Shown piece after piece: positions 4,235 to 38,137 of a DNA stretch of 64,000 nt; position 1 is the first letter of the stretch, and the number at the start of each line of letters is the position of its first letter. Source of the stretch: an uncultured Bacteroidota bacterium. Lineage in GTDB: Bacteria; Bacteroidota; Bacteroidia; AKYH767-A; OLB10. The position numbers were made by a program, and so were the translations under genes. The notes beneath the pieces were generated by a model that worked only from the letters and a program-made list of their open reading frames with translations, ran no database searches and was not told where the DNA came from. The DNA is taken from assembly GCA_903847585.1 (NCBI GenBank), contig CAINEC010000048.1:24189-88188 (forward strand), read 5' to 3'.

Positions 4235-7200
4235 TTAATCAAGAGATACTTTCAGACATAATCCACGTAATTCGTGTAACAATACGTTGAACGACTCAGG
4301 AATTCCTGGTTGTAACATATTCTCACCTTTCACGATTGATTCGTAAGCTTTCGCACGACCCATTACGTCATCAGATTTCACAGTCAATAATTCCTGAAGG
4401 ATGTTTGCAGCACCGAATGCTTCGATAGCCCAAACCTCCATCTCACCAAAACGCTGACCTCCGAACTGTGCTTTACCACCAAGAGGTTGCTGCGTAATTA
4501 ATGAGTAAGGTCCGATTGAACGAGCATGCATCTTATCATCAACCATGTGACCTAATTTCAACATGTAGATAATACCTACTGTTGCTGGCTGATGGAAACG
4601 CTCTCCAGTACCACCATCAAATAAGTAAGTAGAACCGAATTTAGGTAAACCTGCCTTCGTAATCCATGAATCGATTTCTTCGATTGTAGCACCGTCGAAG
4701 ATTGGAGTTGCGAACTTCACACCCAACTTCTGACCTGCTAATGCAAGTACCGTTTCATAAATCTGTCCAAGGTTCATACGTGATGGTACCCCTAACGGAT
4801 TAAGTACGATATCTACTGGCGTTCCATCTTCTAGGTAAGGCATATCTTCATCACGAACGATTCTCGCAACGATACCCTTATTACCATGTCGACCTGCCAT
4901 CTTATCACCCACTTTCAACTTACGCTTCTTCGCGATATAAACCTTCGCTAATTGCATAATTCCCGTTGGTAATTCATCTCCGATTTGAATCTGGAATTTC
5001 TTACGCTTGATTGCAGCAAGTACTTCGTTTACTTTAACGATATAATTCGTCAATAAACGAGTAATCATATCATTCTTTTCTTTGTCTGTTGTCCACTTTG
5101 TTGGATTGATATTCATGTAATCAATATCAATTAACATTTTTTGTGTGAACTTAGATCCTTTAGGAATGATTACTTCTTTAAATGCATTTACAACACCTTG
5201 AGAAGTTTTTCCGCTAACAAGTTCAAATAACTTATCGATTAATTTTACTTTAACATCTGCTAATTCTTTGTCTTGTTCAGCATCTAAACGAGCAATGATG
5301 TTTTTCTCTTCATCTCTTGCACGCTTATCTTTCACAGCGCGAGAGAATAATTTTTTATCGATAACAACTCCTTTTACAGAAGGTGGAACTTTCAATGAAG
5401 CATCCTTTACATCACCTGCTTTGTCACCAAAGATGGCACGTAATAATTTCTCTTCTGGAGAAGGATCTGTTTCTCCCTTAGGAGTGATTTTACCAATTAA
5501 GATATCACCTTCGATAACTTCAGCACCTACGCGAATCAAACCATTCTCATCTAATTCACGAGTAGCTTCTTCACTAACGTTAGGGATATCCGCAGTAAGC
5601 TCTTCTAATCCGCGTTTTGTATCACGAACCTCTAAGCTATACTCATCAATATGTAATGATGTGAAAATATCTTCACGTACTACACGCTCAGAAATTACAA
5701 TCGCATCCTCGAAGTTATAACCTTTCCAAGGCATGAACGCCACTGTCATGTTACGTCCTAATGCTAACTCACCACCTTGCGTTGCATAACCTTCGCAAAG
5801 TACCTGACCTGCCTTAACCTTATCACCTTTCTTAACGATTGGCTTTAAGTTAATACACGTATTTTGGTTTGTCTTCTGGAATTTAGTTAATCGGTAAACT
5901 TTTAAATCATCGTCGAAGCTTACTAATTTCTCATCATTTGTTCTTACACAACGGATGTGAATTTCGTTCGCATCAACATACTCAACAGTACCTGAATAAT
6001 CAGCATTGATTAACACGCGAGAATCACGCACTACGTGTCCTTCAAGACCAGTTCCTACAATAGGAGCTTGTGGACGTAATAATGGAACTGCCTGGCGCTG
6101 CATGTTCGACCCCATCAAGGCACGGTTCGCATCATCATGCTCCAAGAAAGGAATTAATGATGCCGCAATTGATGCAATCTGGTTTGGAGCAACGTCAACC
6201 AAGTGAATATCTTTCGGATCAACGATTGGGAAATCGCCTTCGAAACGAGCCTTCACTTTTTGATCAGCGAATACTCCTTTTTCATCCACATCAGCATTTG
6301 CCTGGGCAATTACTTTAGTATCTTCCTCTTCAGCTGTTAAATAAATAGGCGCTGTTTGAATATCAATTTTTCCGTCTGTTACCGTACGATAAGGAGTTGA
6401 AATAAATCCTAGTTGATTAATCTTTGCGTAAACACACAACGAAGAAATCAAACCGATATTCGGTCCTTCAGGAGTCTCAATCGTACATAAACGTCCGTAG
6501 TGAGTATAGTGAACGTCACGAACCTCGAAACCTGCACGCTCACGACTTAAACCACCGGGTCCAAGGGCTGATAAACGACGCTTATGAGTAATTTCAGCTA
6601 ATGGATTAGTTTGATCCATGAACTGACTTAACTGATTAGTTCCGAAGAAAGAGTTAATTACACTTGATAATGTTTTTGCATTAATCAAATCAGCAGGAGT
6701 AAATACTTCGTTATCGCGAACATTCATACGCTCACGGATAGTACGCGCCATACGCGCTAAACCTACACCGAATTGAGAATACAACTGCTCACCGACTGTT
6801 CTTACACGACGGTTACTCAAGTGATCGATATCATCAACGATTGCTTTCGCATTAATTAATTCAATTAAGAATTTAATGATCTGGATGATATCTTCTTTAG
6901 TTAAGACCTTCGTATCTTCATCGATATTCAGTCTTAATTTGCGGTTCATTCTATAACGACCTACTTCTCCTAAATCATAACGCTTATCAGAGAAGAATAA
7001 TTTGTCGATGATACCACGTGCTGTTTCTTCATCTGGTGGCTCTGCATTTCTTAATTGACGATAGATATGCTCTACCGCTTCCTTTTCAGAGTTAGATGTA
7101 TCTTTTTGAAGTGTATTGTAGATGATAGCGTAATCATTCGTGTTTGCATCTTCTTTATGCAAAATCACTGATTTAACACCAGCATCAACAATCATATCGA

Positions 7201-15216: not shown

Positions 15217-18126
15217 TCACAAATTGGCCAAAAAGACCTCCCCCAAATCCTTCACAGCCGCTTTAAATTCGATTTCAAGCTGCAAAGCAATGCCTTTTAG
15301 TCCTGAACTATCTTTTGCACGCCCTTTAGCTTCCATCTCCTTACAAAGTGCCGAAATCTTTACAGCCCCAATATTTAAACAAGTTCCTTTTAACTTATGT
15401 GCCGACTTCCAAACAGTATCCAAATCGTTACGATTGAGAGCATCGTTAATCGTAGCAATCAATTTTGGAACTTGCAGGGCAAACATTTCTAATAACTGAG
15501 CTGTAAAATTTTTATCGGAAGCCTTCCCTATTTCAACTAATCGTTTTACTGTAGCAAGATCGAGCGTATCAGACTTGCCAGCTAGAGGAGCGGCAGATTT
15601 TACGGTTGTTTTTATTGTCACCTCAGGATTAGGATTTTTAACCCATTTAACTAGCATCCTCTCTAAATCATCAATAGTTATCGGCTTAGAAACATAATCA
15701 TCCATTCCTGCATCAAGACATGCTTTTCTATCTTCAGGAGATGCAAATGCTGTCATTGCAATAATAACAGGTCCCAATTGACCATATTTCATTCTTATTT
15801 GCTTTGTAGCCTCAAAGCCATCCATTACATTCATTTGAATATCCATGAAAACCACATCGTACTTGGTTTTACCAACAGCAACAACCGCATCACCTCCATC
15901 ATTCACTGAGTCGATTTGATAACCAATTCGATTAAATAATTTAGTGGCCAACAATCGATTAATTTCATTATCCTCCACTAAAAGAATTTTAGCTGGTAAT
16001 TGCTTACCCATCTCGAAGTTTGGCTTGTCACTCGCCTGGCTCTTAGGTCGGGTTTCTTTAACTTTTGTTTCCACAATTTTAGTTTCTTTCGTTTTAACTG
16101 TAAAGTAAAAATCACTCCCCTTACCAACTATACTGTCGGCCCAGATTCTCCCACCCATCAATCCAACTAATGTCTTGCATATAGTTAGCCCAAGGCCTGT
16201 GCCTCCATATTTTCTAAATGTTGATTGGTCTGCCTGCGTAAATGCATTAAAAGCGATATCCATCTGCTCAGTTGTCATTCCCATTCCTGTATCGCTTACA
16301 GTAAACTTCAAAAACAAATCCTCACCGCTTCCTTCTGCAACCACATCAATAACAATCTTTCCATGCTCTGTAAACTTGATGGCATTCCCCACTAGATTCA
16401 TCATCACCTGACGTAATCTCGCCTTGTCGCCCAATACTGCTTCAGGGACATTAAGCGCGATATTGGATTTAAGAATCAGCCCTTTTTCTTTTGCTTTTGC
16501 TGATAAGATATCAATGGTTTCTTCTATGACATCTACTACATGAAACGGAGCCTCTTCGAGCTGCATCTTATTCGCCTCGATCTTTGAAAAGTCAAGAATG
16601 TCGTTAATAACTTGTAACAACGCCTCTCCGCTCAATCGCATAATATCCACGAACTCCTTTTGTTGCTCATCTAAACGAGTATTATTTAGCAATTCGGAAA
16701 TTCCAATTAAACCATTTAAAGGCGTACGAATTTCATGACTCATCACTGCTAAAAACTCGGACTTCGCCGCGGTAGCCGCTTCAGCTTTTTCTTTTGCTAA
16801 TCTTAACTCTTCTTCTTTATGCAAACGATCGGTGATATCGCGAGCTGAAAAACTAATCCCAGTAATTAACCCGAGTTCATTTTTCATCGGATACAGCATC
16901 ACCTCGTAAAATGTAAATACACCTTGCGATTCATGACTATCATTATAATTGATGGTCTCACCTTTCAATACTGATTGTATACGACCAACCCACAATTGTT
17001 TATAGCCAGGCTTTAATTTGTTAATGAGATTATCACCTTCTTCCAACAACACTTCATAACAATCTCTGAATAACTTCTTCGCTTGTCCATTGATTACAGT
17101 AACAAGTCCAATAGCATTCAACGACATAATCGACTCGCCTGTATTTTCAACTAACTCAATTAAATTTTCGCGGTTGGAAAGTAAATTGTCTATTGTCTTC
17201 TTTGAATCTGTGTTATCAAAAGCGGTTATAAAAATGACATTTCTAGAAGGTAAAAATGCAGCCATCAAATCGACAACTGCTTTCTTTCTGTTTTTTGTAA
17301 TAATACTTCTTTCTACACTGGATACTGTGGAAACACCTTTAACAAGATCGCTCAACCACTTTTGGTGGATGACAGAGTGCGATGGATGTATTAAATCCTG
17401 CAGCGTAATTTTTTTAAGTTCTTCAACAGTATATCCAGTGATATAGGCAAAATGCTCGTTGACATCAACAAAACGCTGAAAAACATCAATAACAGCAACT
17501 GCATTACTATCGTCTTGAATGGAATCGATTTCTGCTACTGCTGGTGAATGCTCAACATAGTTATTATCTTCCACTTTTGCAACTTCAGGATTGGTAACGA
17601 TTGCCTCTTGAGTAGATGGTGTCGATATTGAATTTCCTACGACATTCCCAGAGCTTTTGGAAGGGATTATTTCTTCTTTTACTAATGGATGATCGAACTT
17701 ACATACGAAGTCGCCATTTTTAAATCGCAACATCGAAATAACTAACGGCATGATATGCCCATTCTTGTTTTTACAATTTATACTTTGACGAGTAAGTCCA
17801 CCATTCTCAGTTGCCACCAACAAGAACTTTATCTCTTCATTTGTTAATTGATCATCGAAAAAATCTGCAAATGATAATTCTTTTAAAACAGATCGCTGAT
17901 ATATTGCAAAAAGTTGTAATGCCATCTGATTAGCATCCAAAGCAGCGTATTTATCCGCACTAAATAGTATAGATGGCAAATCTTGTTGCTCTAAAAACAA
18001 CGACAGCGAAAGATCATCGTTGGTGTCTGATTTTTTCTTACCAAAATGCTTGGAAAAAAAATAAGCTGACACTCCAATAATTACCAGAGTTGTAAAAAAT
18101 AAAATCCAAACGATTGTGGGCATCAT
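15217..18126 (-). CDS. Hybrid sensor histidine kinase (TM - PAS domains - HisKA - HATPase_c - REC - Hpt)
   Basis: [26 protein letters not shown] (H box), [18 protein letters not shown] (G box), [19 protein letters not shown]...[13 protein letters not shown] (REC), C-terminal [16 protein letters not shown] (Hpt). Confidence 0.95.
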
Positions 18127-34611: not shown

Positions 34612-35649
34612 TTGAAATTTGTGAAGAAAATCCTCGTTGGATTATTAGTTGTTTTATTCATTTTTTGTGCATGGAACTACTCCTTGCTATACTATGCATG
34701 CGTACAACTGAAAGGGCAACTTACAATCATTTTTGAGTCGAAGCCAATCGATGAAGTGATCAATGATAAAAGCATCCCGAAGGAAACCAAGGATAAACTC
34801 TTGATGATAGCAGAAATTAAAAAATTTGCTTTAGAGGAATTAGGGTTTCCAAACAACAACAACTACACTACTTTTTACGATCAGCATAATCATCCATTGA
34901 TGTATGTAGTAAGTGCTTGTCCGGAGTTTAGCATGCAGGAATACGAATGGCACTTCCCTATTGCAGGCAATTTTACTTACAAAGGATTTTTCAAGCGTGA
35001 TATGGCAGACCAAGAAGTATTAGCGCGAAAAACAGAGGGACTTGACGTTTATTTAGGAACTGCCTCAGGATGGTCGACATTAGGGTGGTTAAAGGATCCT
35101 GTTTTATCTGGCATGCTGAAAAAAAGCAAGGGAGAACTGGCTGAACTAATCATTCATGAGCTCACGCATTCGTATAAGTATGACAAAAACAATGTTACGT
35201 TTAATGAGAATCTGGCCACCTTTGTAGGGCAAAAAGGAGCAATTTTATTTATCAAAAAGAAATTCGGGAATGAATCACCATTGCTAAAAGAGTACGAGGG
35301 AATTTTGCACGATAATCAATTGTTTGACGAGCGAATGACAAAGGGATATTATGAATTAGACAGTCTATATAAATCGTTTAAGAATGAAACATCAATAGAA
35401 GCCAAAAAGCAAGAGAAAAAAGAATTGACAGAGCATATTCTTGGATCTATTAAAGAGCTCAATTTTGTAGATCAGCATCGATATGATTTTGTTTTTCAGA
35501 AAAGAGACAAGATTAACAACGCCTGGTTTGCATCTTTTAAACGCTATAACACCTTACAACCACGCTTTGAGAGGAGTTTAAACAGTCAAGGGAATGACCT
35601 AAAAAAATGGCTTCAAACGACTGATTTTTCGAGGTTTTCGGGACAATAA
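34612..35649 (+). CDS. Predicted membrane-anchored aminopeptidase (PF10023-like)
   Basis: N-terminal TM segment; AELIIHELTHSYKYDKNNVTFNENLATFVGQKG (HELTH...E zinc-metalloprotease pattern). Start uncertain (TTG 34612 or GTG 34621). Confidence 0.75.
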   Translation: MKFVKKILVGLLVVLFIFCAWNYSLLYYACVQLKGQLTIIFESKPIDEVINDKSIPKETKDKLLMIAEIKKFALEELGFPNNNNYTTFYDQHNHPLMYVVSACPEFSMQEYEWHFPIAGNFTYKGFFKRDMADQEVLARKTEGLDVYLGTASGWSTLGWLKDPVLSGMLKKSKGELAELIIHELTHSYKYDKNNVTFNENLATFVGQKGAILFIKKKFGNESPLLKEYEGILHDNQLFDERMTKGYYELDSLYKSFKNETSIEAKKQEKKELTEHILGSIKELNFVDQHRYDFVFQKRDKINNAWFASFKRYNTLQPRFERSLNSQGNDLKKWLQTTDFSRFSGQ

Positions 35650-35752: not shown

Positions 35753-37414
35753 ATGGCGATTACAGCAATTTCAAAAAAATCAAAAGCTGCCAAGCAAGTA
35801 GCGAAGGCGCTTATTTTAATCGTAGAAGATGATGCATTACAAGCAGAAATCTTAAAGGATCACCTGGAAAGCAGTACTGAAAACAGCACTATATTAAAGT
35901 TTTCAAGTGGCGAAGAGTGTTTAAAGCAAATTGGAAAGAAAAAGCCAACTATTGCATTCATCGACTATAATCTTAATTCGAAGAATAAAAAATCAATGGA
36001 TGGTTTGATGTTATCGAAGAAAATTAAGGCTATGCACCCGAAGTGTGAGACGATTCTTTTATCAGATAAAAACACTGAAAAAACAATCAACGAAGCTTTG
36101 AAAAAATCATCTGTTAAGTTCATTGCGAAAGATGAAAAATCGTTACACTTAGCTGCAGCGGCAGTTCAAGATACTACGAATCCTTTTCAGGCAATGATTC
36201 AACGTTTTGACATTGCATCGAAAATTATCGGGTTAGAGCAAGATGTTTACAATGTGATTAAAAATCCATCGAAATTGGTTGAGGTGAGCTTACCAATCAA
36301 GATGGATGATGGAAGTATTCAAACTTTTGATGGTTACCGTGTAATTCACTCTACAGCTTTAGGCCCCTCAAAAGGAGGAATTCGTTATTCAACAGCAGTT
36401 GATGCGGATGAGGTAAAAGCGTTAGCAGCATGGATGACTTACAAATGTGCCATTGCAGATATCCCTTACGGTGGAGCAAAAGGCGGAATCAATTGTGAGC
36501 CTTCTAAAATGTCGGTTGGCGAATTGGAGCGTTTAACACGTGCCTATACTGCAGCAATGCAAGATATTTTCGGAGTAGACAAAGATATCCCTGCTCCAGA
36601 CATGAATACTGGCCCTAGAGAAATGGCTTGGATTGTTGACGAGTTCAGCAAAATCAAAGGAAGTTTCACTCCAGGTATCGTTACAGGAAAACCTTTACAC
36701 TTAGGTGGTTCACTAGGACGTGTAGAAGCAACTGGCCGTGGCGTATGTACGTCAGCGTTAGAAGCTCTTTCAAAGATGAAAATGTCACCTAAGAAATGTA
36801 AAGCTGCTGTTCAAGGATTTGGAAATGTAGGTTCAATTACGGCTAAGCATTTTGCTATGCATGGAATTAAAGTGGTAGCCATTTCAGATCATACAGCTGC
36901 ATTCTACGATCCAAAAGGAATTGACATTGAAAAAGCAATGGCTTATCGTGATAGCAATAAAGGAGTATTGAAAGGTTATAAAGGCGGTAAGTTAATCACG
37001 AACGCTGAGTTATTAGAATTACCAGTTGAAATATTAGCTCCTTGTGCTTTAGAAAATCAGATTACTGCTGCGAATGCAAGCAATATAAAAGCAAAGCTAA
37101 TTGTAGAAGGTGCAAACGGTCCAACAACGGCTGGTGCTGATGAGGTCTTAAACAAAAAAGGCACTATTGTAATTCCAGATATCCTTGCTAACGGTGGTGG
37201 AGTAACGGTATCTTATTTTGAGTGGGTTCAAAATAGAACAGGCTACTACTACAGTGAAGAAGAAATCAACAAGCGTGCTGATCGTTGGATGAAACAAGCT
37301 TTTGCAAATGTTTGGAATGTCTCTACGAAGCATAAAATTTCAATGCGTATTGCTGCTTATGTATTTGCATTAGAAAAAGTAGCGAAAGCGATTCGTTCAA
37401 GAGGAAGCTATTAA
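35753..37414 (+). CDS. Response-regulator receiver domain fused to Glu/Leu/Phe/Val dehydrogenase (glutamate dehydrogenase)
   Basis: One uninterrupted 553-aa frame. aa ~19-135 read as REC (ILIVEDDALQ, IAFIDYNLN, TILLSDKN, KFIAKDEKS). aa ~143-553 read as a full-length GDH (NPFQAMIQRFDIASKIIGL, PYGGAKGGI, PAPDMNTGPREMAWI, GFGNVGS). Confidence 0.95.
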   Translation: MAITAISKKSKAAKQVAKALILIVEDDALQAEILKDHLESSTENSTILKFSSGEECLKQIGKKKPTIAFIDYNLNSKNKKSMDGLMLSKKIKAMHPKCETILLSDKNTEKTINEALKKSSVKFIAKDEKSLHLAAAAVQDTTNPFQAMIQRFDIASKIIGLEQDVYNVIKNPSKLVEVSLPIKMDDGSIQTFDGYRVIHSTALGPSKGGIRYSTAVDADEVKALAAWMTYKCAIADIPYGGAKGGINCEPSKMSVGELERLTRAYTAAMQDIFGVDKDIPAPDMNTGPREMAWIVDEFSKIKGSFTPGIVTGKPLHLGGSLGRVEATGRGVCTSALEALSKMKMSPKKCKAAVQGFGNVGSITAKHFAMHGIKVVAISDHTAAFYDPKGIDIEKAMAYRDSNKGVLKGYKGGKLITNAELLELPVEILAPCALENQITAANASNIKAKLIVEGANGPTTAGADEVLNKKGTIVIPDILANGGGVTVSYFEWVQNRTGYYYSEEEINKRADRWMKQAFANVWNVSTKHKISMRIAAYVFALEKVAKAIRSRGSY

Positions 37415-37480: not shown

Positions 37481-38137
37481 ATGACAATTCACCGCGAAGG
37501 ATATACGATACTTAGTGTATCAGCAATAATAATGATTGCCTTAAATGCGATTACGTTTTATACTTTAGGAAGCAGCCACTGGCTATTCTTAAGCATTTTA
37601 GTTATTTGCATTGTGCTTTATTTGCTTTTCCTGCAGTTCTTCCGTTATCCAAAGCGCGACTTAACATTAGGAAGTAATTTAGTTGTTGCTCCTGCAGATG
37701 GAAAAGTTGTGGTGATTGAAGAAGTTTACGAAGGTGAATATTTCAAAGACAAGCGTCTTCAAGTTTCTATTTTTATGTCGCCAATTAACGTACATGCTAA
37801 CTGGTACCCTATTGCTGGATTAATCAGTTATGTCGCTTATCACAAAGGGAAATATTTAGTAGCATGGCATCCAAAGGCAAGTACAGAAAATGAAAGAAGC
37901 ACGATTGTAATTCAGAAAGATGATGGTCGTGAAATTTTATTACGTCAGATTGCTGGAGCTTTAGCGAAGCGAATTGTTTACTACCCACATCAGAATGACA
38001 AAATCAGACAATGTGGAGAAATGGGCTTTATTAAATTTGGTTCTCGTGTAGATTTATATTTCCCGTTAGGAACAAAAATCACTGCTCAGATTGGTCAAAA
38101 AACTACTGGTGGTGTAACGGTAATTGCAGAAATGTAA
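37481..38137 (+). CDS. psd: Phosphatidylserine decarboxylase family protein
   Basis: FFRYPKRDLTLGSNLVVAPADGKVVVIEEV, FMSPINVHANWYPI, GFIKFGSRVDLYFP (pyruvoyl processing G-S). Confidence 0.95.
   Translation: MTIHREGYTILSVSAIIMIALNAITFYTLGSSHWLFLSILVICIVLYLLFLQFFRYPKRDLTLGSNLVVAPADGKVVVIEEVYEGEYFKDKRLQVSIFMSPINVHANWYPIAGLISYVAYHKGKYLVAWHPKASTENERSTIVIQKDDGREILLRQIAGALAKRIVYYPHQNDKIRQCGEMGFIKFGSRVDLYFPLGTKITAQIGQKTTGGVTVIAEM

Follow-up and report, generated by a model that had tools for sequence, protein, structure and literature searches.

A receiver domain fused to glutamate dehydrogenase in two sister genera of Bacteroidota: a candidate phosphorylation-switched metabolic enzyme

Standard metabolic enzymes that carry a receiver (REC) domain are already on record as a class, typically with narrow ranges of one family or genus (PMC5847659). 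The fusion described here, of a REC with a glutamate dehydrogenase (REC-GDH), resembles this class, noted by Galperin, both in placing a REC on an ordinary enzyme and in its narrow distribution, but a GDH output was not found listed in the open-access texts searched, and for REC-GDH the origin of the REC and the divergence between its front and back can be traced. The initial annotation of this locus knew of no described GDH output. Neither REC-GDH nor any other REC with a GDH output was found in the open-access texts searched, though a listing in the Galperin reviews of 2006 and 2010 is possible; the wider suggestion of novelty has to be narrowed, REC domains on metabolic enzymes having already been reported (PMC5847659). 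Within the Bacteroidota, PorX of type IX secretion likewise has an N-terminal REC and a C-terminal enzymatic domain, of the PglZ-type phosphatase-like kind, and is an orphan gene away from its kinase, but it contains no dehydrogenase (PMC10951265). In EpsW-EpsZ of Myxococcus, a single-domain REC activates a phosphoglycosyl transferase, by a proposed effect on its oligomer state; post-translational control of an enzyme by a phospho-REC through oligomer state is also what we propose for REC-GDH, but there the REC is a separate protein and the enzyme is membrane-bound (PMC12802240). Ordinary small GDHs (Thermus, Thermotoga, Bacillus RocG/GudB) are 45-48% identical to the catalytic part of REC-GDH over about 410 aa and are without a REC, the alignment starting at the equivalent of residue 140-155. 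GarA and OdhI of Actinobacteria differ from REC-GDH in being separate FHA proteins that are phosphorylated by Ser/Thr kinases, with no fused REC. They are alike in that phospho-signalling acts directly on enzymes of the 2-oxoglutarate/glutamate node (PMC12321487).

The window, which is the whole 64,000-nucleotide stretch of an uncultured Bacteroidota genome that was analysed, contains the fusion as one unbroken frame with the REC at its N-terminus and the GDH at its C-terminus. The features at the locus are as follows.

35753..37414, + strand: REC-GDH fusion gene, 553 aa (open frame, Pfam, orthologues)
35753..35794, + strand: N-terminal tag MAITAISKKSKAAK, kept in REC-less GDHs
35813..36157, + strand: REC domain, residues 21-135 (Pfam and full (beta-alpha)5 fold)
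35963..35965, + strand: codon of the phospho-acceptor D71
36065..36175, + strand: alpha4-beta5-alpha5 output face, residues 105-141 (AlphaFold2 model; column comparison with the ancestral-type REC)
36266..36652, + strand: GDH domain I (ELFV_dehydrog_N), residues 172-300 (Pfam)
36704..37405, + strand: GDH NAD(P)-binding domain (ELFV_dehydrog), residues 318-551 (Pfam)
34612..35649, + strand: putative aminopeptidase (PF10023), upstream neighbour of the GDH gene, kept in the fusion clade and in the REC-less G012 and G016
37481..38137, + strand: phosphatidylserine decarboxylase-like gene (identity from sequence), downstream neighbour, kept with and without the REC

Response_reg matches residues 21-135 with 59.3 bits against a cut-off of 30.2 (E 5e-16, profile positions 1-108 of 111), and the two ELFV domains match the 553-aa protein with 184 bits (ELFV_dehydrog_N) and 260 bits (ELFV_dehydrog). 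In the AlphaFold2 model, calculated from an alignment of the protein itself and its relatives (mean pLDDT 84.9), a complete (beta-alpha)5 REC at residues 19-141 is directly followed by the GDH fold. Residues 1-16, which carry the tag, are disordered, and alpha5 (128-141) abuts the first GDH helix (144-159) with a break of two residues. The initial annotation had described a REC-like domain and a full-length GDH in a single 553-aa frame, and Pfam, AlphaFold2 and Foldseek agree with it, both of the profiles it had proposed as a check, Response_reg and ELFV_dehydrog, being matched far above cut-off. It had also placed D26, D27, D71, S104 and K126 correctly, with 44 residues between the second acidic residue and the phospho-acceptor and 22 between S104 and K126. 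The short extra loop that it saw after D71 was confirmed; far from being a defect, it characterises the entire REC subfamily. As a single frame conserved across species, the fusion has the architecture of a response regulator with an enzymatic output.

The fusion is present at the same locus in eight further species-level MAGs, one of them cut by a contig end, giving a sample of nine genomes, all apparently uncultured MAGs. A search of relatives found it in 7/7 genomes of the genus and in two of the four genomes of the sister genus (G022 and G007; G016 and G020 are without the REC). A scan of GTDB contigs gave full-length fusions at seven loci, 71-95% identical in the alignment; in G006, where the contig begins inside the REC, residues 118-146 are identical. 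The PF10023 aminopeptidase upstream and the phosphatidylserine decarboxylase-like gene downstream do not vary between members of the fusion clade, and REC-less GDHs elsewhere in the family and order likewise remain paired with the decarboxylase-like gene. Three MAGs are titled 'Chitinophaga pinensis', two with the fusion (L009, L011) and one with a REC-less relative (L027); this label looks doubtful, and the three differ among themselves. The range search, carried out within the Bacteroidota over the order, class relatives and a phylum sample, found no further fusions: outside the two sister genera there were none among 42 genomes of the order, none among class-level relatives and none in those 123 genomes of the 396-genome phylum sample whose GDH match was strong. 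Eight unusually long frames from these searches were read and no REC was seen in any of them. Matches upstream of the GDH frame that contained internal stops (e.g. in G028 and G266) were taken as out-of-frame extension. Within the genomes searched, REC-GDH is confined to two sister genera. The Bacteroidota survey proposed in the initial annotation upheld conservation of D71 in the orthologues that span it, but the architecture is not a general trait of the phylum.

All of the sequences come from MAG-type assemblies, which would leave room for an assembly chimera or a mis-called start joining two genes. Against this, separate assemblies of other species have the same 534-555-aa frame, the same start, MAIT.ISKK, and an unchanged gene order with the same neighbours, which rules out the assembly artefact that the initial annotation had allowed for. 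The related reading of the REC as a decaying remnant is opposed by the strong purifying selection on this domain. D26, D27, D71, S104, K126 and F123, the switch aromatic of the REC, are invariant in every fusion copy that spans them, D71 conservation in all such orthologues being a further check that held. With 42/118 REC columns invariant, the chance of five given residues all being invariant is 0.005. Among close pairs dN/dS is 0.05-0.13 for the REC and 0.01-0.04 for the GDH. The REC is under purifying selection, and its non-synonymous evolution is several times faster than that of the GDH. A degenerate REC was rejected on the invariant signature and on dN/dS well below 1, and we give chimera, mis-called start and decaying remnant together next to no credence.

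The tag MA[ILV]T.ISKK[ST]K also opens the REC-less GDHs of G012, G020 and G016, so that the REC either entered the protein behind a tag that was already there or was removed from this position. Since the REC-less GDHs lie at the same locus with the same neighbours, the GDH was inherited vertically and the REC is an addition to it. The REC-GDHs form one clade in the REC tree (support 100/100), which supports a single origin of the REC in these fusions. In the GDH tree the REC trait has to change three times, which would fit a single gain plus two losses.

Both ELFV domains of the enzyme are complete by Pfam, PDB search and Foldseek, the PDB search matching small hexameric-type GDHs from residue about 143 onward and Foldseek aligning the GDH part to solved GDHs with a TM of 0.9-0.96 of target. 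The catalytic residues K207, K231, K243 and D283 are invariant and shared with the REC-less orthologues, and the key residues of the GGAKGG, PAPD and GFGNVG motifs are invariant among 31 orthologues, in line with the intact catalytic and dinucleotide motifs first read from the frame. No NCBIfam equivalog cut-off was reached (best GdhA_Arch, 482 bits against 750); this model is archaeal, and the miss says only that the equivalog models of the library do not fit this bacterial branch. In the G007 REC-GDH (L097 / L016), 20 residues, the equivalent of GGSLGRVEATGRGVCTSALE, are missing at the start of the dinucleotide domain through an in-frame 60-base gap; this enzyme is possibly inactive, or the gap may be a MAG error. 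No second GDH was found in the window genome (G000), where the remaining ELFV proteins are leucine-dehydrogenase-like, and no glutamate synthase scored above the Pfam cut-off; a weak glutamate-synthase match was rejected as it reads as IMP dehydrogenase. Because neither was found, ammonium, 2-oxoglutarate and glutamate are probably connected in this genome mainly through the fused enzyme.

The closest RECs to that of REC-GDH stand alone as proteins of about 172-178 aa. They share its extended beta3-alpha3 loop, DYNLNS...AMDG, and end in a hydrophobic helix, read from sequence as a membrane helix (REC-TM). Their genes lie directly after a 115-120-aa HPt gene, and next to a hybrid kinase in G005 and G020. 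Pairs of HPt (115-120 aa) and REC-TM (172-178 aa) genes are at the following positions.

L224, 4298-5186: HPt and REC-TM pair
L221, 4080-4971: HPt and REC-TM pair, behind a hybrid kinase
L129, 1128-2019: HPt and REC-TM pair, behind a hybrid kinase
L126, 1120-2019: HPt and REC-TM pair

This type is spread across the order and was taken as ancestral; it is apparently an undescribed membrane-tethered terminal REC. Two amino-acid permease genes are neighbours of the HPt-REC-TM operon in G004 and G005. At L219 of G007 (4350-4793), a stand-alone REC with the extended loop lies divergent beside a GAPDH-like gene. The REC of REC-GDH has the extended DYNLNS...AMDG loop and has these proteins as its closest relatives by sequence; it lacks the upstream HPt gene and the C-terminal membrane helix, the GDH taking the place of the helix. 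From this we conclude that it derives from this one subfamily, the ancestral form of which is seen in a hybrid kinase-HPt-REC operon.

The closest REC paralogue within the window genome (41%) is itself part of a fusion, with TonB, and shares its operon with two ExbD-like genes.

L002, 676-1872 (G000:C72:12712-13905), - strand: REC-TonB (REC 8-113, TonB_C 319-396), REC signature residues intact

REC-TonB was found in G000, G001, G003, G004, G005 and G007, while ordinary REC-less TonB orthologues of about 270 aa are present in G002, G006, G012, G016, G020 and others. Strict co-occurrence of the two fusions was rejected, G002 and G006 having REC-GDH together with an ordinary TonB. No publication on REC-TonB was found in the open-access texts searched. 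The REC tree places REC-GDH together with REC-TonB (99/96) and sets the HPt-linked REC-TM apart from them, but the REC-GDH stem is long (1.47) and the exact branching of the two fusions is therefore insecure.

These relatives allow another role for the REC, as a docking or localisation module in which phospho-dependent binding of a partner, or of a membrane kinase/HPt complex, would bring the GDH to sites of glutamate or amino-acid handling and leave its turnover unchanged. The sister RECs are either membrane-tethered, as predicted from sequence, or attached to TonB, the permease genes adjoin the HPt-REC-TM operon in G004/G005, and the phosphorylated CheY-like domain of Flavobacterium PorX mediates binding to GldL (PMC10951265). 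REC-GDH, however, has no TM helix, and the near-linkerless joint between alpha5 and the GDH helix in the AlphaFold2 model suits conformational coupling better than a free tether, and we regard docking as unlikely.

Further information comes from the surfaces of the REC that have changed. The alpha4-beta5-alpha5 face is the usual output face of response regulators. Alpha1 is a known surface of partner specificity (PMC2991266). When REC-GDHs are compared with HPt-linked RECs, mean identity reaches 51% for alpha1 and 53% for the beta3-alpha3 loop; it falls to 9% for alpha4, 20% for beta5 and 17% for alpha5. The same three elements are 86%, 93% and 68% identical within the HPt-linked RECs and 55%, 61% and 64% within the REC-GDHs. 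Among columns whose conservation in the HPt-linked RECs is 70% or higher, 31/40 are retained by REC-GDH in residues 20-104 as against 4/28 in residues 105-136 (Fisher 3e-7; p = 2e-5 with the threshold at 80% and 7e-4 at 90%). REC-TonB gave a weaker front/back shift in the same comparison. The half facing the kinase or HPt is thus retained and the output face rewritten, the pattern predicted for an input that was kept and an output that was re-purposed. Relaxed constraint could be another source of the long stem and the rewritten face, but alone it is insufficient because the new face is itself conserved among REC-GDHs.

The most likely reading, held with moderate confidence, is that REC-GDH is a phosphorylation-switched GDH, a single-polypeptide response regulator with a GDH output. 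A REC would have been copied from the hybrid kinase-HPt-REC phosphorelay subfamily and inserted near the N-terminus of the GDH of this clade. It would have retained its pocket for phosphorylation and, in alpha1, the docking surface for kinases and HPts, while its re-shaped alpha4-beta5-alpha5 face adjoins the first GDH helix with hardly any linker. An HPt or kinase would then phosphorylate D71 and so move S104/F123 and the alpha4-beta5-alpha5 face, and this movement, transmitted through the first GDH helix, would shift the conformation or activity of the GDH or the packing of subunits in the oligomer. The outcome would be an adjusted flux between glutamate on one side and 2-oxoglutarate plus ammonium on the other. 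Phosphorylation itself, its coupling to activity, the direction of the effect and the identity of the donor are the parts of this model that we infer.

The weakest point of the switch model is the phosphodonor. No kinase or HPt gene adjoins the GDH gene, and searches for the ancestral HPt-REC-TM operon came up empty in the window genome, which is 99% complete, and in G002, G003 and G022. The donor must therefore be another HPt or kinase, or phosphorylation may have been lost. Possible donors are the hybrid kinases with an HPt in the window genome, one of them 17.6 kb from the GDH gene on the same contig.

15217..18126, - strand: PAS-HisKA-HATPase-REC-HPt hybrid kinase, candidate phosphodonor

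The missing operon would also fit a REC that acts as a phosphate sink, or as a phosphorylation-independent structural addition for stability or oligomer packing, on a GDH that works as usual; the output face is without the motif typical of its relatives, and the REC is dispensable in G016/G020. A purely structural role, however, leaves unexplained both the invariance of D26/D27/D71/S104/F123/K126 and the retention of the alpha1 surface, and we consider sink and add-on alike rather improbable. Returning to the switch, it is a speculative idea, and one we hold to be unlikely, that a single phosphorelay was split into direct effectors by grafting its REC onto both GDH and TonB in the same small clade. 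If this were true, glutamate metabolism and nutrient import, for which TonB supplies the energy at the outer membrane, could be set jointly by one HPt signal, without transcription.

The principle of a REC on an enzyme is already known, whereas the GDH output appears new within the literature searched and its conserved architecture is well supported by the orthologous frames. The system lends itself unusually well to experiment: the source of the REC is traced, and the REC-less orthologues at the same locus in close relatives provide natural controls. The sister fusion REC-TonB shows a signalling module spreading to new effectors and which surfaces change as it does so. GDH stands where nitrogen and carbon metabolism branch, and a built-in phospho-switch would put core metabolism in direct contact with a sensor kinase; with a REC grafted onto it and the phosphorylation site kept, a sensor signal may directly control this core nitrogen-carbon enzyme.
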